DNA from: Rhea pennata
Lineage: Eukaryota; Chordata; Aves; Rheiformes; Rheidae
Direction: 5' to 3'
Assembly: GCF_028389875.1 (NCBI RefSeq)
Contig: NC_084666.1
Location: forward strand, 28,738,308 to 28,802,307
DNA: 64,000 bases
Positions 35,701 to 62,444 of the stretch are shown piece after piece (the stretch's first letter is position 1; each line of letters opens with the position of its first letter). Below the pieces are notes generated by a model. It was not told where the DNA came from. It saw only the letters and a program-made list of their open reading frames with translations, and searched no databases. The position numbers and the translations under genes were made by a program.

Positions 35701-38700
35701 AGTTCTTGTTTATTGTTGTCTTCTGTTTCATTCATGTTGCCATTTTTCAGTTTTCCATTTTGCTTTTCCTGTTTCTTCTCCTCCTGCAAAATGTCTGCGA
35801 TGGTGTTCAGCAAGTAATTTAAAAACTCATGTGCATCCTGCTGCATATAGTTGTCAAAGAGATCTGTGAAGAAGAGAGTCAAGATTTCTACAACTGAGTA
35901 TACCCTTTTCTTCAAGAAAGCAAACTAAGTTCATTATTTCTTTCCAAATACATGTACTGGGCCTTGCTCACCAAAATAATTAAAAGCATACCAAAGAAAA
36001 GCAGTTCTGCAGTCACGTTGACTTCAGCGAAGCTACTTCGAGGGAAGGCTTCATCTCACCTAACTTTAGCTGTCTAAAAGGTTAGGCTTTTCTTTGGAGC
36101 TACTTGTGTAGACTCCCACTACTGTTGAAGAAAAAAAGCAAGAGGGTGACTCATCCCAGGCAACTATCTGTGCCTAAGATAGGTGTGAGAAATCTAATGA
36201 CTACAGAGGGAATCTAAATTAATTGCTTAGACTAGATGCCTAACTTTAGGCAACACTGACTCCCACCCATATATTCCAAGTTACTCAGACACTTAAGAAC
36301 ATGACTGAGTTTGGACAGTAAGACAGTCGGCTGGGGAAATGGAAGGCATTGGACACTAACATACAATAATAACACTATCTGAAAAAGCTCATTTTCCACA
36401 CACAAGTCCGATCAGCACAGACTTGTCCTCTTCAACAGGAAATGCTTGCAGAAGGTACAGAAGAATATCTCAATGGTGAAGTAGAACAGACTTTTTCTCC
36501 ACAAAAGGCTTAATTTGCCCATCATGTTGAAGAAAAAAAGAACTTTCATTCCCAATAAATGTGTACTTTTATCCCTCTGCTCCTGAAAAAGCCCACATGG
36601 ATTTCCTCCGAAAATATTATTGCACAGACTCTTTAGCTTTGCCGTGTCTGGCCTGGACACATAAGCAAGTTAACCCACAGTGAGTGTGGCCCTAATTTAA
36701 AAAAGCTGAGAACATAAGATGCAGTCCCTAAAAGTGATTCCCAACAGTGTAGGGGCATTTATCACTAGATGACTCAGAGCTAACTTTGTCACACTTTCAA
36801 TTGCCTCCTTTGGAATGAACAATCTGCCCATTTATATGCTGTCACCAGGAAGCAATTTCTTCCAGGTGTTCCACTCACACTTTGTCTCTTAGTTCAAAGC
36901 TCCCTTGTTTCTAAGCATACCACCCACATTGACATGAACCCAGGCCAAATGGAACTGTGTGGCAGGCTTCCTGATTTCAAGATGTTCCTCACATCCCTTA
37001 AAAAGGAATCCTACAAAAACAGGCATATGCTGTTGCTAACTTAATTCTCAAAAAGGGCCTGATGCTTCAAAAAGTCAGACTGTGCCATTATTTAGAACAA
37101 GAGAACTAGCTGACATGTAGTACACTGAACACACTTGCCTATCTTTCAGGATGCTTTGGACTAGTTGTGTCTGTAGCCCTCCTAGGTGACACTGCTTCCA
37201 CTCTGCCAACTGCCCATAATGTCTCTCTCTGTCATACTCTACAAAAAATAATAAAAAATCATGGCAGAATGTGCAGATGCCACCCTCTTCCCACCCTTAG
37301 CTCACTGCTTAGTTCTCTCTGTCCAATCGTGCTGAGAAAACATCATTAAACAAACCACACACCTCAGGGAACTTACCAAATCTGGTATGTGTATTTCAAG
37401 TGTAATATTACATACCCAGATAATAAAATGTTAACATTTAAAATGAGATAGTACTAAAAACAATCTACAAATTTAAGGTGAACATCTGATTAACATGATC
37501 ACTCTGCCCAAAATTTCCTGACCAATCTGTGAATGTCCAAAAGGATTCTGATTTTGCACTTACCGTTCTCTTTTCGTAACCTTGATATGAACTTCTTTGG
37601 TGGAATAACTCCAACTTTCTTCTTCTGAGTAGCAATACTGTGGAAAAGATCTGCCAGGCAAGTCAAGAGATTTTCCTTCTTTTTCTGTTGGGCCTTGTAT
37701 GACAACACATTTTCCCGAAACGGCCGGCAAAAATATAATGCCTGCAGCACGGAGTTACAGTAGCAGGTGTTCCCAAACTGCCATGTAAAAGTAAAAACAG
37801 TCTTAATCCCTGCGCATCACAGTAAAACTAGCTGCTTTGTTCAAATTCTGGCCTCTGTGGCCCTGACACATACCAGCCATTTTACCAAGCAGCTGCTGTA
37901 GGAATATATTTCCACATCTTCCCTTGACACTTGCACAGAAAAAACCCTAAGGTTCTATAAACTAAGTAGGATATAAAGGAAAAGTTCCTACTAATAAGAA
38001 ATACATTTTTGGAGTGAGTCTCTCTGAAACTTGTTTCCATATATTGATATGTTCTTCTTGGGCTCCATCTTATTGCTCAGTAGCAAATGGCTATTGTTTT
38101 CAATGGGAAGAAGTACTATCTCAGTTTAATTTAAATGAGAGTAAACAAGCGGTTAAATAGCCCTTTCACGCATTCTCTCTTCAGTCATATAAAAAGCTAC
38201 TCCTGAGAGAGCCCATGATGCAGACTGTTGTATTTAAATGTGCACCTCCATCACTTCCTACTAAACATTAATAAAAAGATTGTCCCTCACATTTTATGGC
38301 TAAAAGACTTTAACTTTACTGAAGTGTAAGTTCTAACCACAACCAACATTCACAGAGCAGTAAGCTGTTTTCACTGTGGGGTATGAAGCTATCTTCAAAC
38401 ATCCAGTTTAGTTTTGCAATACACTTTGCCTAAAATTGGAACATATGCAACATTTCAAATCAAATCCTTAGGGAAGGACTGGGGGTAGGGGGAAGGAAAC
38501 AAAGTTAAAATAACACCAAAACTATAGTTCCGTATATGATTTGCCTGTTGAAAATAGTACTTACATTGACCAATCCAAAATAGTGCTCATTGATTGGAAA
38601 CTGCTCTGGACCAATGTCTTTTTCCAGAGCAGAGGCATTGGTGCCCTAAATAAAACAGGGAAGAATCTTGTTAGTCTCCATTTTAAATTAGGATTCTAAA

Positions 38701-41700
38701 ATAAAGTTATGGACAGCATCAAGATAGAAATGCCCATTTTCCTTTCAGTTACAGTTAGTTAAACTAACCCTGTCTTACTAACGGGCAAGCATTACATTCA
38801 TATGAGCCAACAAAAATATTTGCAGTTCTAGGTAGTGGAGGAGCTGGCCTGACCTAGGCATTCTAGTAATGGTTGATTTGAAGTGAACAGGTCACAACAA
38901 CAGTGGTTCTCCCCCTAGACACATCCCCCTTATTTTAATTTGTACATGAACAGCTGGATCCCATTACTCTCTTGTATCATAAAGATACTTGTTAATCTTA
39001 AGCAAATCCCTTAAACTTATCTTGGATCAACCAGTTTCTAGATGTAAGGCAGGTTTTCTAAGCATTACTTAAACTCTTCTGAACCCTTTCTAATTAATTC
39101 ACCAGCAACTTTTAATATAATACGAACTTCAAAACAGCACGTAGTTCTAGCAATAGCATCACAAATGTTAAAAGGAAGCATAACATACTTTCCATTTTGC
39201 TCTATCTAACATCAAAGAGTACATAAATCCAAACACTGTTACATCTCAGTCACTGTGTTGCCACTGTGAGGCATGTTCAGCTGTACCTTCATTCTAATGG
39301 CAAAGTTGCTTTCACAGCTGTCTCTACATGCAGTCTCTAGTTGCACGTGTTACCTTTGCTGTATTAAAATGTCCATTTTAGATTATCAAGCAAGCAGACT
39401 AGACTGCTGCCAATGCCAGTGTCATCACTCCTGATCACTCTGTAAGTATAGAAGATCCCTATAGGACCTCACTAAAATGCTCCGGTTGGAAAGGTATTCC
39501 CTATGTATGATTACTCAAGATCAACCTGTTTTTAATCTACATAATTGCTTTACTGACATCATACACTGTTCTTTTCTTATTGAACATGCTCTTCAGTATG
39601 AAACAATGTAGATTGTATAGTAATACTATGCCTTAATAATTTCTATCACACATGTTCTAATTTCCTCAAGAGCAGCATAGTTTTGATGACACATTTATTT
39701 TCATAAAAACATGTAAAATGCCACTGTAAACATACCAAAAAATAAAACATCATTATCTTTTTGCTGTTTATCAGTTGCAACCCTTACCATCTTTTCTGTA
39801 GTTTTGTATAAGGGTGAGGTTAAATTGCATTTACACAGGTCCCTACTGACTCCTGTGCACAAAAAATGTCTACATAACATTTTTTTCCCCCTAATACTCT
39901 GAGATTTCCCATGTTCTTGAGATTTGTTCAAAATAATATTGTCTCAGAGAGCTCATCAACCAACATTTTAAAACTTGCTGCTAATCAAATTCAATAGTTC
40001 TGATGTTCTTCCCCCATCCTCTCCCAAAGCCTGATTTGTATTTCCTTACTGTGCCTACCAATAGCACTGCTTGCTATAATAGATTATTATTTCATGTCAA
40101 CTCATCAAAAGAAGCTGATTTCAGTCAACAGAATCAGTGGTGTGAAAATTTGCACAGGTGTTCTTGGACAATTTGCAAGCCTTGAAAGCAAAACAGCTCC
40201 CTTCAAGTTGGCAGCTTCCTAAAAAGTTCCAAAGATTCTGTATTTCACATCCCCTCCTCGGGTCCCGAGTGTCTGTGGTTTCCCAGGAGTCCCACTTGTG
40301 CCCCAAGTACTTCATCTGCACAAGACTCCACATCCCAGTAACATAGCCGAGCTCAGAATCAAAGCTCTTAAGCAGAGCTTAAGGAGGCGCTGTGCATCCT
40401 TACTGGCTTCTACTGACCCTCAGTAAGGAACTCATAAAAAGGAATAATCCATATAAAGCAATTATTGGCTCTATTTCAACAGAGATGGCAATGTCATAAT
40501 TATGTAAGCTCCAAACGAAGATTAGCTTCTTTGCTTGGGAAGACAGCTTTCCCAGAGCTGCACAAATTCAGCAACTCAATCGACTTCCTGAGAGGGAAGG
40601 AACTGTCTATACATTGTCTATCTGATAATAACAGTAAACTGCCATTGTTACCTCAAAACCTTGGCTGATAAAAGAAAAATATGAATATGGAAAACTGCTC
40701 TAGCTTGTGAAGAAAGCCATGTTCATATTAATTCTCATTGTATAGCATTCAGATCAAAGCAAAGATTTTCTTGCAACATATGTTCAGTGTTCAAATCAAG
40801 ATCTCTAAAATAAGAATGAAGTGAGTCTTTCTTTAGTTTTGCAGGAAACTTTTTTCCATACTAACAAATATTCTTCCTCTGGAATTCATGGGAAACGATG
40901 TTGCTAAAAGGTAACACCCTACTCTTTTGTGACCTATAAGTTAGAGTACGATGTTAAACTGGCAGAAATCAATTGCTCTGCTAATTAACTACTTCTGCGT
41001 TGCCCTATTTGCCTTTTCTGCAGGACCAGGGTTTCTTATTCAAGAAGATGCCAGATGGTTTTGGCAAATCTTTCCTACATTTAGATTTCCTTCTATATAT
41101 TATGAGAAATAGCAATAATCAGAATTTACCTGATGAAATTACCACTGAAAGCCAAACAAATCCGTGATGCACACTATCCTATAAAATGCAGGATTGCAAT
41201 TTTTTTTCAACATTGAATCTAAAAATAGCTTCTACACTTTGCAATTAAGTTTCCAAAGCATATGCTATTGAAACAGCATATAAATAGTAAGAGTTTATCA
41301 CAGAGCTATACCTTGCAATCCAAAACCAGACATTGGCTGCTGCAACTGCACAACAAAGCAGTGTGTGTCCATTCCCCAGTGGAACAGGGAGGTAAAATTC
41401 AGTCTTTGGCAAGCTGACATAACTCCCATTGACCTTAGCTGTACCTTCCTATATCAAGGTATATCAGTCTGGATTATTTTAAGGTGTCCAAAAAGATATT
41501 GTTGAATTTATAGGAAAAAGTAGAACAGGAACACAGAGAAGAAGCCTGGCAACCTATTATTTCAAAGTAGGATATATTTCTTATCTGGGGAAAACAAAAA
41601 AATCTAGGCAGACTATTTAGAAAACCCAAATCATGCCATACTGCATTAATTTATACATATATTATATGTTTGGTATAGGCAGGCTCTTCCTGAAGCTGTT

Positions 41701-42045
41701 GACATGAAGACACAAGGAACATGTTTGGAAATTTTACAGCCCAAAAAAATGTCAGAGATGTGGTAAAGATGATTTAGAACTTAGTTCAGCTGGCCACATA
41801 AAATAGGGAAAACCTGTTAGCCTACTGTAGTTAATGTACAATGGAAATCAACCATGACTACTTAACATGGTTTTAAACAAGGTTTTCCTTGTTCCCACTT
41901 CCACCAATGGATTTTGATCTCTCCTGCTAGTGAAAACCTGCTTGAATATTTTTAATACAATTCATTTTCTGTTTTGTGTTTCAGATGGGTCTGTGTTTCA
42001 GCTAGAAGAAATATCCTACCACTGCTAAATCCACTGTAGTTTCAT

Positions 42046-42076
<31 letters not shown>

Positions 42077-45000
42077 AGTTGCAGGGCAGCTACAGACCCT
42101 GAACTGAGGAGAGCCTAGAGACGTAATTCAATAAACTGGAATCTGGGACTGTTAAATTCACACTTGTATAAAGAGATAACACAGAAGCATGGCTGCTTCC
42201 TAAAAAAACCATGTTAAAGAAGAAATGCAACAAGTGATTGTAGTAGCCAGACCCCAAGGGAACGAGAATATATTCCGTAGCATTAGTGATCTTTGATTTC
42301 TTTGAAGTTTTGTCATTAAATTCACCAGTCAGGATTTAAACTTTAGTATTTTTTAACATACTCTTATTAAATGGCAAAGACAGCTGGAGACTTAGCCACG
42401 TTTGGGTCAATTTGGGCTAAACCAGGACTTCTACTGTACCATCATTCCAATAACTGTTCAGGCCATATGACCTGGATTTTTTTCCTCTAGTTATTTTTCT
42501 ATAGGACTTCTTATGGAAAGTCAAACAGAATTCATTTCAGCTGAAATTTCTGGTACCATAATGAAGGGTTTAACTTGTGCTTTGTACCACATGAAAGAGA
42601 TTAAGTAAAAAACTCCTGTTTCTTTGCACTTTACAATGTACACAAAAAAAAAAAAAAAAAAAAAAAACAGTGCAGGAAAAAAAGTCAACAGATTAGATCA
42701 TTAAATCAGAGAAGAATATAAATTCTATGCGACAAGGACAGTCGTCTTGTTCACCTGCAAATATGGAACAAGCATGGAGAACTGTGGTAAGCCTTTTACA
42801 GCTGTTACATTGTCTCCTATTTTGGTCATAAATTCCTTTAAATTACAGCACTATATAGTTATTACAAATTTTAGATGTGCTTTTGGGAGAATAACTAGCT
42901 TGCTGTCCTCAAGACTCAAGCTATTGTGCCTTTTCAATGCCACAGTCAAGTGGTTACAGAAAAGGTCAATTAGTTGATATACTCAAAAAAATCAAAAAGC
43001 TTTGGATCCATCATACGTGGAGACACTTTCCATGTATGCTCCTGCTTGTCCAGTGCCAAAAAATAGGTTTGTACTGAGGTATTAAAAAATACCTCTTTTA
43101 GGTTTGGTCTGACCTCATCAATGATCTAGAATAGTGGATAGCTCTAGTCATGGCATGAAAAGGGACATAAATAACTTACTGAAATGAGCAAATTTTTCTC
43201 ATAGAAATACAAACTAAGCTATTTTACCAAAATAACTGAAATACAATAACTGTATAGAAAATGAGCAATGGAAGTGAGAGAATATGAAACATGAGTTCAG
43301 TAAAGAAATGAAAAAGTTTCCTAAGTCATCTGTGGAAAACCTGTCAAGCAGGTATCCCCTCAATAAACAGAAGCACAGTATGTGTGACCATCAAACAATA
43401 AAATAGAAAATAAGAAATAGTAAAGACATGTCATCACAATAAAAGCTAAAAAATATAAGAGAAGACATATGCAAAATTAATTGTGAAAAAAGAGATTTAA
43501 TAAATATATAAAGAGTAACTGATGCGCAAAAGGAGATGGTAGGTCCACAAAGAAGGGCTTCAGACCATATACTGCTGCAAACTGGATATTTTTGTCTTAG
43601 TATTCAAGGCAAGTGAGAGCAACGTGCTAGAAATAGAGTTGTTTCCTGGAGGGAAAAAATGAAAACTTAAAACAAACTAAGGGTGATGATGGGACTGGTA
43701 GCAAAGAAATTAGAATAAAAATAGAAATGGCTTCAGGGCCAGGCAGCCTGAGTTTCAGAATTTCAGAAGACACAGCAGATGGGAGTGAAGAGAAAAGGGA
43801 GACAGAGAAGGATGTGGTAGGCCTATTGTCCAACAAATGGCCGTGAAGGATAACTGGAAGAAGAGGAAGCAACTTTACATAAAATTCAAACTCAGATCCC
43901 TGAAGCAATATGAAGAAAAAGAGGATAACAAAACAGCAAGAGATACCATATTGTGCTTAGAGGTGCAAGCATTTTCAGCAGACACATCACCTAGCTTTAG
44001 TGCTGGACCTCCCCTTCCCAGGGACCACCTCAACTTTCACAGGGGCTAGAACAGCCGAACCAGCTACTCCAGCTGAACAAAGGCAAGTTGGAGTTTGTAT
44101 CAAGCATCTCATCTTTCCACAAAACAAATACACCCTGCTCCATGTTAAAAAAACATCTAAAATTTTGGGAGACAGAAGTCAATTTTAGCTCGAGAAATTT
44201 TTAACTGTATCATGGAGACTTTTTCTCTCTTCTCAAACTACAGTGAGTATCTATGTTCCTGTTTCAGTCAACCTGAACAGTCCTCTGGAAAAGTTTGACC
44301 TCTCTCCTCCCACTGATTATAGAAGGATTTTATAAGGACTAAAATTTCTAAGATCAACATGCATCTTTTGAAATAGATCTCTTTAATATCCTAAATTGTG
44401 ATGACAATAAAAGTGGTAACGATACATTACCTGGGCCAGGGGGAGAAAGGAATAATCTAAACCTTACAGAGCCATTTATTTAAGAAAAGTTACATAGGCT
44501 CCTTCCAAATTCATAGAAGATAAATGTCAAGGTTGAAATGTTTCTGTAATTTCTAAAGTTTCATAAAAATGTAAGTTCCACAAGATGATTTTATTTAGTC
44601 AGATGAGCTTTTTTCTACAAAGAAATGTTTTAGTCTTCCTCCAACAGAGCTCCTTGGAGTTCTTGTTCCCACAAAATAAAAGATGGAAGAGAGGGTGCTA
44701 TAAAAAGATAGAGATCATAGCAGATGGTAAAAGCATATTGATAATTTAAAACCACTGTATCATCATATTTCTTAACGAAAGGTGATTTAAAACAATGTAT
44801 CTAAATAAATTATCTTTGTGCATTTCTCTAAAGAATGTTCTGATCAATTCAGCAAATTCTAAGAGCTTGAAAGGAGAGGTCTATCTTGTTTTTTGATGGA
44901 TGCACTGAACTATCTCTAATCACAGATGCATACACCATAAATAACTGCAGCTCTTTCACTGTGTTGTAACACAGCTTCTTGGTAACAATCAAGAAACAGA

Positions 45001-48000
45001 TGAAGACTGAGAGGCCTAAAATCCTGAACTGCTTAAGCACTGTACCCAAGATTTTAAGGCATTCAGTCTTATGTAACTGAAAAAAAACTTTATTTTCTCA
45101 AAGCACTAAGCAACCACATATTGGACGTGAGCTTCTAGTGAAGTGTTTGCTACAAGTTCAGCATCTAAATTCATGAGCAACTTTTTAAAAATACTGACTT
45201 TTAAGTTTCTGTGACCAAATCAAAACTCAAAATTTGCCCAATCTGTCTCCATTCCCAAATTATTTGTTCTTAGGTTAGCTTAGGTGGAATGAGTAGAATT
45301 TACATTCCATTTTGGCCAATTTCCTTCTTGAGAACACATAATCTCAGGATGGACTCACAAGAGAAAGAGACTGAAATTTGCTTGCAGAATATCACTTCTT
45401 CAAAGGCATTTTTTTACTGAGCCATCTGGACTACATATGTGGCGCCTCAGAGCATTCTAAGCGCAAGGCACCTTCTAGACTTCACCACAGTTGCACCAGC
45501 TGGAGAACTCTTTAATAACCTGGAGGACACAAGATAGAATACCTTCATTAAATCTAAAGATAACAGAAATTGTGAGGGCTGTTGGAGAACAGACTTAGAA
45601 TTCAAAATGATCTTTGACATATTAGAGGAATCCTCTAGAAGTTGTTGAAATTCAATCAAGATAAGTGCAAGATTTTGCACATAAAGAGAAGAATCAGCTG
45701 TATGTATACACAATGGGAAACAACTGACTAAGACAGAAGTTCTTAAAAAAAAAAAAAAAGCTGGAGACCATAATGGTTTATGCATTGAATAAGCATCAAT
45801 CATGCCGTGCTATGTCAAAGAAAATATAGACAATATACTGAAATTCTTACAGAAAGAAATCTACAGATTGCTTGAAGTAACTTTCCTGTTTAACTTCCGA
45901 CTGGCAAGGCTTCAGACAGGACTTTGTGTCCAGGTTTGGGTGCTCGGTTTCAAGAAAGAGAGAGGTAACTGGAGAGAGTCCAAAAGAAGGCATGAAAAAA
46001 TGAACTCTAGAGAAAAATGATCCACAAAAAAAAAGGTTGATTTTTTTTTTTGCATAAGACAGAAAAGATTAAGAATATTTTCAAGTATATGAAGTCTGTA
46101 AAAGAAAGGAAAGAACTAGTCTGTTCTCCATCTGAAGGAACAGCATGAGAAGTAGGAAGCTCAAATTACAGCAATGTAGATTCAGGAAAGACATTAGGAA
46201 ACTTTCTAGTTATAAGGACATTGAATCATTGGGTTAGACTGCCTAGAGAGATGTCAAAGTCAGCACCAACAGAAGTCTTTAAGTTAGACATGTGTCAGAA
46301 AAAACATAGGTTTAATTGCTTCTGTCAAGGTAGGTGATCTGTGGAGGTGCACCCCAATTCTATTTCTTTTTTTATTTCTTTAATAACTCTATGGTTTATC
46401 AAAGGAACTTCAACAGGCAGTCAGGGAATTTGGTCTTAAGACCACCACAATCACTATTGTCCCAGGAGATTTATTGATGAAATAACCACAATATACAACA
46501 CACAATAATGACTGGTTTGAAGCTGTTAACATGGCAGCCTTCTCTGCAAAGACAGCATAGCAGGAACATGTTTATAATCGAGCCCAGATGGTGGAGATGC
46601 AAGGCCATTTTTTCCCCAATAGTACCATGTTAAATGGTACTATGAAGTTAAGTGTACATAATAAGCATAAATGTACACAATTTCACTAGAAATGCATCTA
46701 CCAAACAGCCAGACAAGGACAGTTTCCTGAGGCTAAATGAAGATCAGCAGAAGGAACTTTGCGGACTTCTTCTCCCACCACCATGAGCTACACTCTAGTG
46801 GCTCTTAAGGCCCATCAGGGCCTCAACTCCCACAAACAGGCTCCAGAATCTGCTTCTAATTCCATCTCTTCCATGAAGCTGACTCTCTCAGCCTTGTGGA
46901 GCTGTAATTAAGAGGTTCCTTTATGAAGATACTTAGCATAACACTCACCTGCTCTTAATTCATCAGCTTGAAGCCAAAGACTACAGACATCTAAAGGAAA
47001 CACAAAGTTTTTGCATGGTATTGCGTATTGTCCTGTTGTGCTTGTCATCTTCTAACCAGCTAGGGGTACATGGTAATCACTTCAGCCATAAACAAGGTAT
47101 TCACGCAAGCTCCAATCATTAGCCCAGGTTATACATCGGAAATTTTATACTTGGATGTTTTCCAGTTTGTATTCCTCTACCCAAAGGCATATAAAGTATC
47201 TTTTGCAAACTTTTGCTTGTCTTTGATGAAATACTTTCTGCTTGTTAGTGCAGTACTTGTTTGTCAGTCATACCTGCAACTTCCTCATTATTTTACAAGA
47301 TGTAATAATAATTAGACTTCACATTCTCTATATTTTCCCAGCATTGCATTAGCTTCTCTGTCTTGTGTGCTCTTGAGACTATGTTTCTAAAACTGTATTG
47401 CTTAAACTGCCTGCAACTAATCTTTTCAGATGTAAAAATTCATGGTCCTTTATGATTCTAAATATATCTTCAGATAGCTGGCCTACTGTCTTGGCAGGTA
47501 AAATTCTGCCATAATCTTTCCTTCTGAGAAGAAGTTTGAAAGGTTTTGAGGAAATATGCATTGTGGAATGTCTATATGAATAAATCTAGTTAAAATTTGT
47601 AGTAATAAATTCTGTATTACACGAACACTTTATTGTACAAAACAGAATTTGACTATTTTTAGAGCAATAGAATTTTTGTATTTTCTAGCTTCTAACATTT
47701 TCCAAATACACGAGTTTGAGTCTTCATCTTGCCAATCCCCCGCATTCAAAAAAAATCCTGCAATCAGTCTCTAAAATCATAACATAAAAAATAGTTATTT
47801 TTATTGCTTCCTGACTGTAGAACCTCTCAGGTTTTTAAGTTTTTCTCTATAATTTCTAGGATGGCTAGAAGCCTTTTTTTATTTTAAAATGAGAGCTGAA
47901 ATTCTCCAGTATTCATATAACTCCTGGTACTAGAGCCTAAAGAAAATAACCTACTACTATGAAACTCATGAAGACCATGAGAAGCATGGGTAAGAAAGCC

Positions 48001-51000
48001 CAATTAATAAAGAATAAAATCAATCTGAGGAACTTCTGTACACTTTTTTATTCAAAGGACACCAATACAACAAGTAAGAGAAGCAACTGGGATGTATCTG
48101 AGTTTATACCTTTATCAGAGGAGATCTGAATGTGTTTATAATACATTGTTCATTAAATTGACAGAGTACTTCGAAATGCAGATCAGATTGTTTGAAATGC
48201 TATTACAGAATTACAAAAGAGGAAATTTATATATGTTTTCAGCAGAATATTAAAAGAAATTTAGTAAGAATACAGTCCACCAAATGTGTTAACCATTTCT
48301 GTAAATTATACAGCAGTACATTCTGAAGTGCTCAGATGTCATGCACTGCACATAACAGTAATATTCCCTAGGTCACAGCTGCAGCATGAACTTAATTCTG
48401 AGCTCAAGGGTGAATCAAGAGCTCATCAGCAGAGAATCACACTGCAGAGGATTTCAGAAAGCAACAATCTTAAAATGACAACATGCCTATCCACCTTTGA
48501 ACCAACTTTCGGTACTCGAGTCATCTGGGTTATCTCACAGAAACAATACCTATGAAGATTTCAATGCAAGTATAGGGGCTAAAAATACATCCCTAATTTT
48601 TGCCCGCAAGAGTTACATGACACCAGGTGTTAGTATTCTCTAAAACAGTGCTTCTTGAATCCATCCTATGCTTCTTCACATCTGTTGTACCATTCCTGAT
48701 TTGATATAGTAGATAGACCTTACAAGTGCCTGCCGCACACCTCCTGTGGCCAGACTAGTGTGCAGACATAGCAGGTGAACTTTCCCAGTGTCTGAAAGAC
48801 CGATTAAGAGCAGCACCTCTGGGACTAGTCCTCCATCTTCAGTGAGGGTGGCCACTGTGCCCATTTCAGAGTCCCACTGATTCCTTCAGGAAGAGGTGCC
48901 TCCCACCCTCCCCAAGCAGAACAAATACTAGGTCTTTGGTCTCATTTACCAAGTCACTGAATAACAATTAAGAGTATTATTATAATTAGGGGGACAAAAG
49001 TGGGAAAAGACAACAAAGGAGTTTTGCTGATTAATTCTAGAAGTTGTGGGTTTGAAGTTTTACTCCAAATCATGTACCAGGTACAAGGTTTATATCTTAC
49101 CGATTTTCTTACTGGCTAGCTCCTACTGTGTCAGGCTCAGCATATGAGAACTTATCCAGTGAATACATAGTACAAGCCATTTCTTTTGCAAACAAGTTAA
49201 AAATTCTCCCTTGTTTCACTACATTGACTCTTTCTGGAAAATGCTGAACCTCCATCACCTTCAGGAGACCAAAATTACGACTGGAGATACTAGGCCGCTG
49301 GCAGACAATTAAGTAGAAAATACACATCCTACAACACTGCGTAGCCATGCACTCTTGAGCCATATTTACCCAGCTAAATTTCATCTAACTTTTCCCCTCC
49401 AGGACTTGAAAATACTCAAAAAAACCCAAAACTTTCATCAAGAGAGGACTGCCTCTGAAAATATATGAAAACCTGTGAAATGAAATCTGAAAACCTATGT
49501 TGCATTCAGCAAAGGACAAACACTTACATCAGCACAAAAAACAATCAAAGGACAAACACTTACATCAGCACAAAAAACAATCAAACAAAAAATCCCAGCC
49601 AAGCATTATCCATTTTGGAAAGTGGTTAGGAAAAACAACTCTCTAAACATCCTGAAATGGAAAGGGAACACAAAAGGAAAAAGAGGAAAAGAAGATTTTT
49701 TTCATTACTGTATTCAACTACATTAAAATACTTGAAAAAATATTATCATGTTGTGTTATATACCAAAATACATTAAATTACCTAAGAATTAAGGTGGTCT
49801 TTATTAGGTCATCCATTGTTGTTAGTTCAGTTCTTCAAGCACTAAGTTACAGTGAAGGAACAAGATCGGGCAATTAATATCTTTGGCAGATACCTGCAGA
49901 TGCCCTAAATCAAAATAGCACTGCAAATATACAGGTTTTATGCAAATATAATGCATATATCTCTAACCTTCCAAAGTCCAGTTCTTATGCCGTGTTGCCT
50001 TAGGCTTTTCTAGAGTCCATTGAGCCTAAATCCACTAGAGCCCACCACCTCATCTAAATGGACTCATTCACAGGGGAGTCATGACGCAGTGCTACCAATA
50101 ACTACAATAGGTCGTGTTTCTCTTAAAGCCCCCCAAATTCCTGTAACTTTCTGAAAATCTCAGCTTTGCTCTTCCTGAAAGTACTTCCTGTCTTTATCAT
50201 TATGCAGAAGAGACTAAATGTGACCAGCATAACACAAAATCTCTAAAAGCAAACTATGCAGAGCCCAAGGAACACATAACTTTAAAACCTTGGTACTGTT
50301 AAACCAATTTCACCCACTATCACCAGTACTGATACAATGGGCCAAAACTGTCTTCAGTTTTCTGCCAGAGACTCTTAATTCTTCCCTTTAGTGTCATCGT
50401 GCCACTCAGTGGCAGTGTCGCAGGTGCTACTTTTTCAAGACATGCTATCAGTGTCTGTGCAGCAGACATCAAAACAACATCAATCGTTTTGCTCTGGGTC
50501 AGTTCAGGCCTTGGGAGAAGTATGCTATCTATAACGCGTCCCTAAAGAATGCAAGAGAGAAATCTTGGAGGCTGTAATACCTTATACCCACATTAATGTC
50601 TTACAACTATCAACCAGCCTCCAGCTCCCCTTCATGTGGTGCTCTAGTAAGCAGTTTGCAGGACATCACACCTACCATTCATCAGCAATAGAAACTAGAG
50701 CCTGCCTAAAAAGGAAGGTAGGTCCTCAGTGCTGTACTGTTTCCTAAACCTTTCTTTGCAGTATCCTTGGCTCACGGGACTGAAGCTTATTAAGGACAAT
50801 GAAAAGTTTAGAAAACTACTTACTGTTGGTGAAGAAAGCTGAGAACTCAAGTTATTTTACCCCAAAGAGTCTGGCTTTATTTTTCTTACTGTAAGCCCAA
50901 ATCCAGCCCTCCCTCTGTGTGTGTCAAAGCAGTTGTTCCAAAGGAAGGACTGAGCTATACGTCAGAACTGTGTGCAGGATGCTCTTGGCATCTGGCAGGA

Positions 51001-52327
51001 ACGAAAGAACAAGCCCACTTGTTCCGGGAGCCTGGACATGTGGAGGGGAAGAAGGCTGACACAGCCTGTGTCCCCACCCCCAGACCACTGCTGCTGACCC
51101 ACAGGAGCCAGGCTTCTGGGGCTGTGTGTTGCCTTACCCTAGAGGTAGGCTCCGTTCTCCGGGGCAGATGAATGGTATGTGTGGCATTGCCAGCACAGGG
51201 CATGCTGGGGCACCACATGGAGGGAAGGTGACAACTGCATGTAGCTGCTCTTGTAGAACCTGGAAATAAGGGGGAAAAAATACAGACTAAAACAACAAAA
51301 TGCTGGGAAATAAGCTCCTGTTCTGTTTGCGTTGGGGTACTTAGCACTCTCTCATGCCTTGGACAAGTTTGTTACTGTCTCACTGTATTAACAAACCTCT
51401 GATAGACATACTTTGAGCTCTCCCTTCCCTCACCAAAAAGTTTGAAAATTTCAAAATGTCAGATGCTCCAAGCTTGTCAAGAATAAAATTAGACCTAAGC
51501 ACATAGTGAAGGAAGTGTCCTTTCACCTGCTCATAGGGATAAAAGCAGCAGTCTCAACACAGAATATTAACAGTTCCTCATTCCTCCCTAATTGCCTAGC
51601 CTATCACTGTAGAAAGCTAACTGCTTCAAGAGTACTTTACAAACAGCAGTCCTCCGAGTGGCATGCAGTGCAAGAGAAACCCTGATGTTAACTCTAAAGC
51701 AAAGATTTCCTGGAGCAACTACCTAGCATCTGGCTCCAAAAGCATCCAAAAGCAAGTCCCACATCTAAACAAGTGTCTGCACTGTCTGCGTAACCCGGGC
51801 AGCTCCTGGCAGCAGGCGACCACAGGGAAGGTCTGCATAACCCAGGGAGACCTCCTGTCCAGGAGTGTTAAACGGGGCCACCGAGGTAATGCGGATTCAG
51901 AGCCGAATTTTACAGCAGGAGGAGGAAGGGCAGGCTGCGGCTCCGGCTGCAAGGCATGAGCCGGGGCCAGGCCGGGGCCAGCGCCGCTCCGGCCCGGCCG
52001 AGTGCCCGGCCCGGCATCCCCAGCCCGCTCCCGGCACTGCTCCAGGAAAATTTCTCGGGACACGGCCGCTGCCCGGTGGGGAGCTGCAGCCCGGACACAT
52101 CCCGAGGCGGCGCGGCCGGCTCCCCCGCCGCCGGGGCTGGGATGCGGTCGCCCCCTTTGCCCGGCGCCCAAGACGGGGGCCGCCGGCCGCCCTGGCGCCG
52201 GCCCCAGCAGGGCCTACCCAGAGGGGCTGCCGTGCCGTGCCGTGCCGTGCCGCCCCCGGCCCGGCCCGCCACGCCTGCCCCGGGCACTCACCATATTACA
52301 GATGGAGGCGATGTTTCTGACAGTCAT
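26627..52327 (-). CDS. USP46: USP46, ubiquitin-specific protease 46 (complete, nine coding exons)
   Basis: A cysteine deubiquitinase (peptidase family C19). Family members are weakly active alone and are stimulated by the WD40 proteins WDR48/UAF1 and WDR20; reported substrates include histones H2A/H2B, PHLPP and AMPA-type receptors. CDS, minus strand: 52327-52292, 38645-38565, 37777-37564, 35863-35634, 32077-32001, 29476-29393, 29097-28900, 28013-27935, 26728-26627. The join gives 366 codons plus stop with all phases consistent, equal to the mammalian length as I recall it. Visible features: Cys box GNTCYCNS with Cys44; QQDAHEF; zinc-finger pairs Cys182/Cys185 and Cys229/Cys232; His box with GHYIT (His313); DDD with Asp330; C-terminal YILFYQSRE. 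The linker KLKNGNMNE and the ending QSRE favour USP46 over its paralogue USP12. The Lys91-93 run, which includes the residue deleted in a known mouse behavioural mutant, is intact. Confidence 0.97.
27935..28013 (-). CDS. USP46: USP46 coding exon 8 (residues 308-333, catalytic His and Asp)
   Basis: 79 bases. The first base completes Ser307 and the exon ends in phase 0. It encodes [20 protein letters not shown] and DDDIVE, carrying catalytic His313 and Asp330. The acceptor is CTTTTTAG|TGG and the donor GAG|GTCAGT. Confidence 0.96.
28024..28053 (+). repeat. (AAAAC)n pentanucleotide microsatellite
   Basis: About six uninterrupted AAAAC units, 10 bases from the 3' splice site of USP46 intron 7. 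On the transcribed strand it is a GTTTT-rich tract that forms part of the polypyrimidine region of that acceptor. Confidence 0.9.
28900..29097 (-). CDS. USP46: USP46 coding exon 7 (Met242 to part of Ser307)
   Basis: 198 bases, phase 2 on both sides, encoding [17 protein letters not shown] through [11 protein letters not shown]. These are the palm and fingers strands that lead into the His box. The acceptor is TTTTACAG|GATG and the donor GGGAG|GTAAAC. The segment [10 protein letters not shown] is present. Confidence 0.96.
29393..29476 (-). CDS. USP46: USP46 coding exon 6 (Arg213 to part of Arg241, second zinc pair)
   Basis: 84 bases, phase 2 in and phase 2 out, encoding [20 protein letters not shown] and SKQEAQK. 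It contributes the second zinc-binding pair CETC (Cys229, Cys232). The acceptor is ATTTACAG|AGA and the donor AAAG|GTAAGT. Confidence 0.96.
30684..30755 (-). mobile_element. CR1 LINE 3' end fragment
   Basis: Reading plus, the fragment starts TCATAGAATGATAGAATAATTC and continues with TAGAAGGGACCTCAGGAGAT. This is the reverse complement of the classic CR1 3' terminus with its ATTCTATGA repeats. It is 5'-truncated, as usual for CR1. The element lies in the same orientation as USP46. Confidence 0.85.
31590..31740. repeat. Degenerate ancient interspersed repeat (tentative)
   Basis: It contains CTGCAAAGCACACACTTAAC and CAACAAAGCACTTGAGCAGA plus AAGCACACTTAAAT. These inverted or direct variants of a CAAAGCACTTAAGCA core recall an old repeat seen across birds and other sauropsids. 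I cannot assign the family. Confidence 0.35.
32001..32077 (-). CDS. USP46: USP46 coding exon 5 (residues 188-212 plus part of Arg213)
   Basis: 77 bases encoding [17 protein letters not shown]...SITHCL and two bases of an Arg codon (phase 2). The acceptor is TGCTACAG|GTT and the donor TAAG|GTAAAC. The exon is too short to stand out as an open frame; it was found from the family sequence and its splice sites. Confidence 0.96.
32078..35633 (-). other. USP46: USP46 intron 4
   Basis: About 3.6 kb of AT-rich sequence. It contains one copy (34488-34521) of a short dispersed repeat that recurs in intron 3, and otherwise nothing that I recognise. Confidence 0.7.
34488..34521. repeat. Dispersed repeat copy A (CATCTCAC-TAACTT core)
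   Basis: About 34 bases closely matching 36052-36087: CATCTCAC, then TAACTT, AGCT, TCTAAA and GGTAGGC in the same order, with a few substitutions and small indels. Two copies 1.5 kb apart in the same orientation point to an old interspersed element. Confidence 0.55.
35634..35863 (-). CDS. USP46: USP46 coding exon 4 (Asp111 to Thr187)
   Basis: 230 bases. The first two bases complete the Asp111 codon and the exon ends in phase 0. It contains [18 protein letters not shown], the charged linker with [22 protein letters not shown], and the first zinc-binding pair CLNC (Cys182, Cys185). The acceptor is CTTCACAG|AT and the donor ACT|GTAAGC. The frame runs open into the flanking introns, but the splice sites and the next exon fix the ends. 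Confidence 0.96.
36052..36087. repeat. Dispersed repeat copy B (CATCTCAC-TAACTT core)
   Basis: The second copy of the element seen at 34488-34521, here in USP46 intron 3. The following sequence to about 36260 contains a related TGCCTAACTTTAGGCA palindrome, which suggests that a larger degraded repeat surrounds it. Confidence 0.55.
37564..37777 (-). CDS. USP46: USP46 coding exon 3 (residues 40-110, catalytic Cys box)
   Basis: 214 bases, ending in phase 1. It begins [12 protein letters not shown], so the nucleophile Cys44 lies five codons from the acceptor. It also carries the CRPFRENVL and [13 protein letters not shown] segments, including Lys91-93. The acceptor is CATGGCAG|TTT and the donor AACG|GTAAGT. 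Confidence 0.97.
38565..38645 (-). CDS. USP46: USP46 coding exon 2 (residues 13-39)
   Basis: 81 bases in phase 0 on both sides, encoding [16 protein letters not shown] through GLVN. The acceptor is TTTATTTAG|GGC and the donor AAT|GTAAGT. The first residues GTNAS follow Met12 directly after splicing. Confidence 0.96.
42047..42077 (+). repeat. (AAAT)n microsatellite
   Basis: Seven consecutive AAAT/ATAA units in USP46 intron 1. Confidence 0.9.
42644..42667 (+). repeat. Poly(A) tract, 24 bases
   Basis: An uninterrupted A24 run in USP46 intron 1. On the transcribed strand it is T24. No retroelement body was recognised upstream (TTTACAATGTACAC). Confidence 0.9.
45440..46360 (+). mobile_element. 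Old, diverged CR1 LINE fragment
   Basis: Blocks typical of CR1 ORF2 3' sequence appear in order. About 45660: AATTCAATCAAGATAAGTGC. About 45910-45990: GGCTTCAGACAGGACTTTGT, then GTGTCCAGGTTTGGGTGCTC, TTTCAAGAAAG and GGAGAGAGTCCAAAAGAAGG. About 46190-46290: GACATTAGGAAACTTTCTAG, TTAGACTGCCTAGAGAG and ACAGAAGTCTTTAAG. Frames are broken throughout, so no protein is encoded. It is antisense to USP46 in intron 1. The boundaries are approximate, and an internal A15 tract at 45745-45759 looks secondary. Confidence 0.7.
49511..49582 (+). repeat. Perfect tandem duplication, 2 x 36 bp
   Basis: The unit AAAGGACAAACACTTACATC plus 16 more bases occurs at 49511-49546 and again at 49547-49582 without a mismatch. 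On the USP46 sense strand each copy contains GATGTAAGTG, a strong match to a 5' splice site. The perfect identity suggests a recent duplication, or an assembly artefact. Confidence 0.95.
52228..52252 (+). repeat. (TGCCG)5 GC-rich pentanucleotide repeat
   Basis: Five tandem TGCCG units inside the CpG island, about 40 bases into USP46 intron 1. Such a repeat is likely to vary in length. Confidence 0.85.
52292..52327 (-). CDS. USP46: USP46 coding exon 1 (residues 1-12)
   Basis: Encodes [12 protein letters not shown] and ends in phase 0 exactly after the Met12 ATG. The donor is ATG|GTGAGT. The Met1 context is weak (C at -3, A at +4). After splicing, Met12 gets A at -3 and G at +4, a strong context. 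The same exon carries the 5' UTR with two upstream ORFs. Confidence 0.93.
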
Positions 52328-52331
52328 TAGT

Positions 52332-52361
52332 CTAAAGGTTGCAGCGATCCCACACCGCCAT
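52332..52361 (-). CDS. USP46 upstream ORF 2 (9 codons)
   Basis: ATG to TAG encodes MAVWDRCNL. The start context AAGATGG is strong (A at -3, G at +4). The stop lies only four bases before the USP46 start codon. The ATG sits in an AAGATGGCGG element, so if transcription starts close to it this ORF would have a very short leader. A role in repressing or re-initiating USP46 translation is inferred, not shown. Confidence 0.45.
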   Translation of the reverse strand: MAVWDRCNL

Positions 52362-52364
52362 CTT
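52354..52364 (-). promoter_or_regulatory. YY1 / TISU-like element AAGATGGCGG
   Basis: The minus strand reads AAAGATGGCGGT, matching the YY1 core and most of the TISU consensus. Such elements usually lie just downstream of transcription start sites of CpG promoters in this orientation, which supports the minus-strand direction of this promoter. Confidence 0.6.
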
Positions 52365-52390
52365 TACAAGGTGAAAACAGCCCCGCTCAT
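52364..52390 (-). CDS. USP46 upstream ORF 1 (8 codons)
   Basis: ATG to TAA encodes MSGAVFTL. The start context CCCACCATGA is close to the optimal Kozak sequence. It ends two bases before the ATG of upstream ORF 2. It is only relevant for transcripts starting upstream of 52390. Confidence 0.4.
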   Translation of the reverse strand: MSGAVFTL

Positions 52391-62321: not shown

Positions 62322-62444
62322 GCTTTGCCCTCTTAAGTCTGACAGTGTCTTAAGTGGCCAGTACAGAGGGGTATAAAAGTTCTCTCTTAAACCCAGAGGT
62401 GAGACTGAAACTCTACTTTGGATCCTGTTGAGAGGAACACATTC
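62322..62444 (+). ncRNA. SNORA26: H/ACA box snoRNA, SNORA26 candidate
   Basis: Two hairpins joined by an H box and closed by an ACA box. Hairpin 1 has a 6 bp base stem CCCTCT (62328-62333) with AGAGGG (62365-62370). The H box ATAAAA is at 62373-62378. Hairpin 2 has a 7 bp base stem TTCTCTC (62380-62386) with GAGAGGA (62430-62436) and an upper stem CCAGAG/CTTTGG (62393-62398 with 62416-62421). ACA lies at 62437-62439 (or 62439-62441), with the 3' end about three bases later. The 3' pocket (TTAAAC left, CCTGTT right) can pair with the 28S rRNA segment GACAGGUUAGUUUUA, leaving the U after GG as target, 14 bases from ACA. The length of about 120 and the position within a host intron are typical. 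The match to SNORA26 rests on host and target; the sequence was not compared. Confidence 0.65.

Follow-up and report, generated by a model that had tools for sequence, protein, structure and literature searches.

Dual translation initiation that exposes an N-myristoylation motif is known in kind, and by analogy the USP46 gene described here is a candidate member of this class. In Arabidopsis, according to excerpts of PMC12973399, PI4KIII beta1 possesses two in-frame AUGs, its short form carries an N-myristoylation motif and is located at the cell periphery, a G2A exchange shifts this short form towards chloroplasts, and the choice of the start depends on the 5' UTR. The plant protein (same source) is a lipid kinase whose long form goes to chloroplasts and whose switch is triggered by pathogen signals and was tested, whereas the switch in USP46 is a prediction from sequence. 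A related principle is seen in AURKAIP1/MRPS38 (PMC12718117, in excerpt), where a signal exposed in the shorter product is concealed by a short extension, seven residues masking it partly; in this case, however, the signals serve mitochondrial targeting rather than being an acylated glycine, and an upstream CUG gives rise to a 28-residue extension. In human mRNAs with a weak annotated AUG (PMC7397870, in excerpt), a downstream in-frame AUG is likewise stronger and the out-of-frame AUGs are weak, although no word starting with USP occurs in the main text of that paper. According to PMC2518114, TISU acts as a YY1 element and also starts translation, and it lies no further than +30 from the transcription start; the AAGAUGG-type start of the three USP genes considered below resembles it. 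Of the genes bearing TISU, 64% use its ATG as their main start, whereas the ATGGCG found here lies out of frame and begins a short uORF.

The window, i.e., the whole 64,000-nucleotide stretch of Rhea pennata DNA that was analyzed, carries USP46 on its minus strand, as read directly from the sequence, and is contained in the 1.27-Gb assembly of 180 contigs that was searched. The following features of the gene are referred to by their window positions.

52292..52327, minus strand: USP46 exon 1 coding sequence, 12 residues, with the Met1 codon at 52327-52325 in a weak context (direct read)
52292..52294, minus strand: Met12 codon, the final codon of exon 1 and the candidate alternative start (direct read)
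52286..52291, minus strand: intron 1 donor GTGAGT (direct read)
38565..38645, minus strand: exon 2, 27 residues, the first six codons of which finish the candidate N-myristoylation motif M-GTNASA (direct read)
37565..37777, minus strand: exon 3, ends approximate, opening the catalytic core FGNTCYCNS (placed by peptide)
about 37777, 35861, 32050, 29463, 29096, 28000, and 26707, minus strand: later exons (placed by marker peptides)

Exon 2 is preceded by an acceptor ending in TTTAG on the minus strand. The first 189 residues of the protein matched the UCH domain (Pfam PF00443, 2.7e-35) from residue 35 onwards, so that residues 12 to 34 precede the domain match, and the top PDB match of the same 189 residues was the USP46 chain 5l8h (2.4e-118). 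USP46 thus shows the UCH domain and the closest match to USP46/USP12 that characterize the USP12/46 family. Intron 1 also contains a 36-bp unit repeated in 2.1 copies with zero mismatches (positions 49510-49585).

The minus-strand read bore out the start contexts described in the earlier note. Met1 lies in the context AGACTA-ATG-AC, with C at -3 and A at +4, and is weak as claimed, whereas Met12, with which exon 1 ends, lies after splicing in the context TGTAAT-ATG-GG (A at -3, G at +4); a protein starting there begins with MGTNAS. The note erred in assuming that Met12 gains G at +4 only upon splicing: the intron donor GTGAGT starts with G as well, and splicing is therefore needed for Gly2 of the Met12 form, not for the +4 base. 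A hairpin 3' of Met1 that might rescue the weak AUG was considered and dropped, because the spliced USP46 and USP12 segments did not fold clearly better than shuffled sequences (z of 1.16 and -0.33, respectively). A 5' segment of USP46 gave no sign of a hairpin against shuffles either (z of 0.70).

Pattern matching established that MGTNAS fits the N-myristoylation pattern quoted in the note, G-{EDRKHPFYW}-x(2)-[STAGCN]-{P}, as does MGANAS of USP12; the match is relevant only if Met12 initiates, and given such a start USP46 has the Met-Gly beginning and the NMT pattern expected of an N-myristoylated protein. Based on proteome amino-acid frequencies, the chance that the pattern follows any Met is about 1.2%, or 0.31% if Ser is demanded at position 6. 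For one gene chosen from a long window a chance of about 1.2% is unimpressive, and recurrence is the better test. N-myristoyltransferase (NMT) favors Ser at position 6, and this Ser is retained in all three paralogues described below as well as in a distant relative. In a PDB comparison with a threshold of 1e-20, seven distinct chains were matched, all of which we take to be of human origin. The printed alignments of 5l8h (USP46) and of 5k1b and 5l8w (USP12) show the motif, and residue 1 of the construct 5k16 aligns to Met12 according to the match table; the matched stretches of 6jlq, 5cvm, and 5k1a start later than the motif, and two USP12 chains include the MTV residues that open the long form. 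The presence of the motif in PDB chains means that it is not peculiar to this assembly.

The assembly was searched with a degenerate pattern comprising the end of exon 1 and the donor, which finds close, unspliced matches only. It matched at four places, i.e., USP46, USP12 (contig C1), a USP12-like gene (contig C11), and a fragment on contig C9, while the reversed control pattern gave 0 matches. The statement in the earlier note that USP12 carries MGANAS at the same place proved correct, USP12 of the same assembly reading MEILMTVSKIASICTM followed by GANASALEK. The third gene of the USP12/46 type is located as follows.

contig C11, minus strand, MTV AUG at 21178040 and exon 2 from 21165299: USP12-like gene, beginning with MDVLMTVRRLASICTM followed by GANASALEK

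USP46, USP12, and the USP12-like gene, the places with an MTV start, are the three paralogues counted throughout. In all three, C at -3 and A at +4 flank the MTV AUG, the MG AUG follows 33 nt later with A at -3 and G at +4, exon 1 ends with ATG, and exon 2 starts with GGC. A weak first AUG combined with a stronger in-frame second AUG, one mark of dual-initiation genes, is thus present in three of three. An out-of-frame AUG at +43, 10 nt past the MG AUG, is weak in each of them (C at -3, C at +4), and both USP12-type genes possess an additional AUG at -12 with C at -3 and G at +4, which opens MEIL and MDVL, respectively. The C9 fragment (22350114-22350136) agrees with the USP46 exon 1 end and donor in 23 of 23 pattern letters, and in BLAST it gave a 35-column match of 88.6% identity to the minus strand of the window and one other weak match elsewhere. 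It was dropped as a paralogue, as it has no MTV start and no motif of exon 2 or of later exons was found in the 40 kb scanned; it is a chance match or a degraded copy.

Substitutions between the paralogues differ on the two sides of the junction. Between USP12 and the USP12-like gene, codons 1 to 12 showed 1 silent and 3 replacement differences, compared to 10 silent and 0 replacement differences in codons 13 to 39 (Fisher p = 0.011). The corresponding silent/replacement counts of the two comparisons involving USP46 were 1/3 versus 7/3 (p = 0.24) and 2/3 versus 8/3 (p = 0.30); the three pairwise tests are not independent, and these two, although not significant, lean the same way. Judged from these sequences, strong protein constraint may begin at Met12, and residues 12 to 39 are conserved throughout, beyond the motif alone. 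The extension is partly kept as well: T2, V3, and A7 to C10 are retained in all three paralogues, differences in codon 2 are silent only, and MEIL versus MDVL is a conservative exchange. Since residues 2 to 11 are partly conserved, the long form is probably made, and the combined pattern suggests that both forms are.

The leader of USP46 holds further starts, for which at least 450 nt were scanned in USP46 and USP12 and 200 nt in the USP12-like gene.

52332..52361, minus strand: USP46 uORF 2, MAVWDRCNL-stop, start at -34 (52361) in the context AAAG-ATG-G
52364..52390, minus strand: USP46 uORF 1, MSGAVFTL-stop, start at -63 (52390) in the context CCCACC-ATG-A
52356..52364, minus strand: AAGATGGCG, a TISU/YY1-like element containing the uORF 2 start and matching the TISU consensus at 10 of 12 bases

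The AUGs at -63 and -34 both have A at -3, and uORF 1 lies within the USP46 mRNA only if transcription begins upstream of it. Two further USP46 ATGs, both with G at -3, lie at -255 and -428 and count only if transcription starts that far 5'; USP12 has an upstream ATG at -445 with C at -3. AAGATGGCG occurs as a single exact copy in the window, with 0.13 copies expected and at least one copy in 13 of 100 shuffles. The full TISU consensus is SAASATGGCGGC and includes the TISU YY1 site; measured against it, the USP12-like gene matches at 12 of 12 bases and USP46 and USP12 at 10 of 12 each. All three genes feature an out-of-frame ATGGCG with A at -3 upstream of the MTV AUG, positioned at -34 in USP46, -26 in USP12, and -77 in the USP12-like gene. 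The uORFs that it opens span 9, 8, and 25 codons, respectively, the last being alanine-rich, and their peptides are unlike each other. The stop codon overlaps the MTV AUG by 1 nt in USP12 and the USP12-like gene and ends 4 nt ahead of Met1 in USP46.

Our preferred explanation is that translation of USP46, USP12, and the USP12-like gene can begin at either of two in-frame AUGs. The long form, with an internal glycine, would come from the first of these (MTV, or MEIL/MDVL for USP12-type genes), which has a poor context and directly follows a short uORF whose own start is strong. The second, located where exon 1 joins exon 2 and in a strong context, would yield MG[TA]NASALEK and so on, which methionine aminopeptidase and then N-myristoyltransferase would convert into a form with a myristoylated glycine. 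If the uORF is part of the leader, the distance for reinitiation would be 4 nt to the MTV AUG in USP46, or 1 nt backwards in the other two genes, compared to 37 nt and 32 nt, respectively, to the MG AUG, and distance affects reinitiation. If USP46 transcription starts 3' of the uORF AUG, the leader to Met1 would be shorter than 34 nt. Ribosomes that leak past the uORF would meet the weak Met1 and then the strong Met12. Judged by general scanning rules, reinitiation, a very short leader, and leaky scanning would each favor Met12 over Met1, and the uORF, being presumably present in the mRNA, may have a regulatory part in this choice. Reports on leaders of 40 nt or less, in which truncated N-terminal forms are commoner (PMC13219423, in excerpt), and on TISU reporters, in which leakage to a downstream AUG was undetectable (PMC2518114, in excerpt), bear on these routes. 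The earlier note had proposed that leaky scanning yields the two forms; its sequence logic is sound and is backed by the two paralogues, one distant relative points in this direction too, and the interpretation is partly supported. The note considered leaky scanning alone; reinitiation or a very short leader is equally relevant given the upstream uORF. The lipid would help to keep the complex of USP46 or USP12 with UAF1 and WDR20 close to membrane receptors. We consider the probability that a real, myristoylated Met12 form of USP46 exists to be about 0.5.

The main alternative in which Met12 plays no part takes Met1 (MEIL in USP12) to be the sole start in practice, MG[TA]NAS being kept as a fixed partner-binding N-terminal arm whose likeness to an NMT substrate is incidental. 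That conservation spans residues 12 to 39 and not the motif alone speaks for it, as do the partly kept extension and the two USP12 chains in the PDB with MTV residues; it leaves unexplained, however, the pairing of a poor MTV context with a strong context at the next in-frame AUG in all three genes and the location of the uORF stop at the MTV AUG, and it has to accept a pattern chance of about 1.2% per Met. We regard this alternative as unlikely. It is clearly more improbable still that Met12 is used, maybe even as the main start, to give a product that is not myristoylated, e.g., one with Gly13 N-acetylated or free: the contexts and the uORF favor Met12 here as well, but Ser at position 6, the residue preferred by NMT, is found in all three paralogues and in the distant relative.

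A further alternative overlaps with the preferred explanation and differs in the cause. ATGGCG might be retained for its function as a YY1 site in the promoter, the uORF having no translational role; any dual start would then result from the use of different transcription starts, which remove Met1 or make the leader very short. TISU is a YY1 element as well as a translation start (PMC2518114, in excerpt), very short leaders raise downstream initiation (PMC13219423, in excerpt), and the uORF peptides differ across the three genes, all of which agrees with this cause, whereas a uORF stop at the MTV AUG in three of three genes does not, even though ATGA itself gives a stop in one frame. On balance, this version appears rather doubtful.

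Relatives outside the assembly were sought in two scans of genome contigs, the first of which gave none that was confirmed and the second of which gave one, and in three scans of viral contigs, in which no orthologue was confirmed. The relative is located on PALY01000161.1. This contig is recorded as part of a Deltaproteobacteria MAG but also carries PHD-finger and lipase-3 genes and looks like a eukaryotic contaminant. Its protein of 575 residues matches USP46/USP12 best (3.1e-91 to USP46), well above other USPs, the best of which is USP1 (2.6e-32). The frame reads stop-Pro-MGATSSKS, a single residue separating the in-frame stop from the Met. The context of this Met is C at -3 and G at +4, and no other Met follows in frame before residue 45. 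An NMT-like signal would stand at the beginning of the protein, provided that translation starts at this first Met. MAFFT paired a 10-residue stretch of the N-terminal region with an internal NGTKNASPFEK of the relative, not with MGATSSKS, so homology of its start glycine is not established, and the likeness of MGATSSKS to MG[TA]NAS may be an analogy. Fly Usp12-46 has the N-terminus MGANIS, and the N-termini of Arabidopsis UBP3 and UBP4 are MGAAGS and MGLGSS. These N-termini would fit a wider reading that we offer tentatively, regarding it as possible rather than probable: MG...S would be the ancestral N-terminus of the USP12/46 family, which would be myristoylated across eukaryotes, and vertebrates would later have added a short upstream exon with a weak AUG behind a strong uORF, masking the lipid anchor, so that the module of uORF stop, weak AUG, and strong AUG would set the ratio of free to membrane-bound enzyme.

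The statement in the earlier note that no description of a Met12 form was known agrees with our search of open-licence PMC, where none of myristoylation or of a Met12 form of USP46/USP12 was found among the matches listed, and the same collection yielded no evidence for Met12/Gly13 from ribosome profiling, N-terminal peptides, or lipid labelling. Within open-licence PMC, the fly gene CG7023 combined with myristoyl gave no match, peptide and DNA strings of this start region matched by word accident only, USP12 combined with MEIL gave no title on localization among the titles seen, and uORF terms combined with USP46 gave none naming USP46 among the matches listed. The available parts of PMC8357983 and PMC10414793 contain a single use of 'myristoyl' each, unrelated to USP46, and USP46, USP12, and myristoyl are all absent from the main texts of PMC13219423 and PMC12718117.

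According to excerpts of PMC10556042, USP46, UAF1, and WDR20 are recovered with cell-surface proteins, and USP46 tagged at either end is inactive in Wnt assays; since the C-terminal tag inactivates it too, the tagging result does not single out the N-terminus, although it is compatible with a lipid anchor. Mouse USP46 fused to EGFP in pEGFP-C1 was seen throughout cells (PMC11705415, in excerpt). EGFP covers the N-terminus of USP46 in this fusion and would hide the glycine. Work by Olazabal-Herrero in 2019 reportedly found that WDR20 recruits USP12 to the plasma membrane only if the MEIL residues, which belong to the long form, are present, and that USP46 is not recruited, which counts against a Met12 lipid anchor. 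In the HeLa myristoylome, the excerpted text of PMC4200515 states that the cotranslational set kept proteins with an N-terminal MG and that Swissprot plus isoforms was searched, so a Met12 form would have been included only with an annotation of its own. Of the membrane-associated targets invoked in the earlier note, PHLPP is a weak example, its status as a phosphatase being disputed by a 2026 title (PMC13358185); LRP6 and integrin beta1 serve better as membrane substrates. USP12/46 complexes are described as guarding LRP6, integrin beta1, and glutamate receptors from ubiquitin-driven loss, and a cited title adds the T-cell receptor. If the preferred explanation holds, the USP12/46 complexes that protect membrane receptors would have a switchable lipid anchor, N-terminal tags would mask the relevant form of USP46/USP12, and myristoylome analyses limited to annotated MG starts, the filter described in the excerpt of PMC4200515, would miss such proteins.

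Two other observations concern the surroundings of USP46 and UCH-domain genes elsewhere in the assembly. Downstream of a GC-rich stretch at about 60.5-61.2 kb of the window, a small RNA was located.

62325-62442, plus strand: SNORA26 (Rfam RF00568, 98.1 bits)

Its host is presumably the lncRNA gene DANCR, which would lie head to head with USP46 here. On contig C27 (6273065-6431981), UCH-domain matches recur about every 14 kb, at least 12 of them to profile positions 1-40, and contig C165 (351348-428402) holds further UCH-domain copies, the counts being lower bounds; the pattern suggests tandemly repeated copies of a USP gene.
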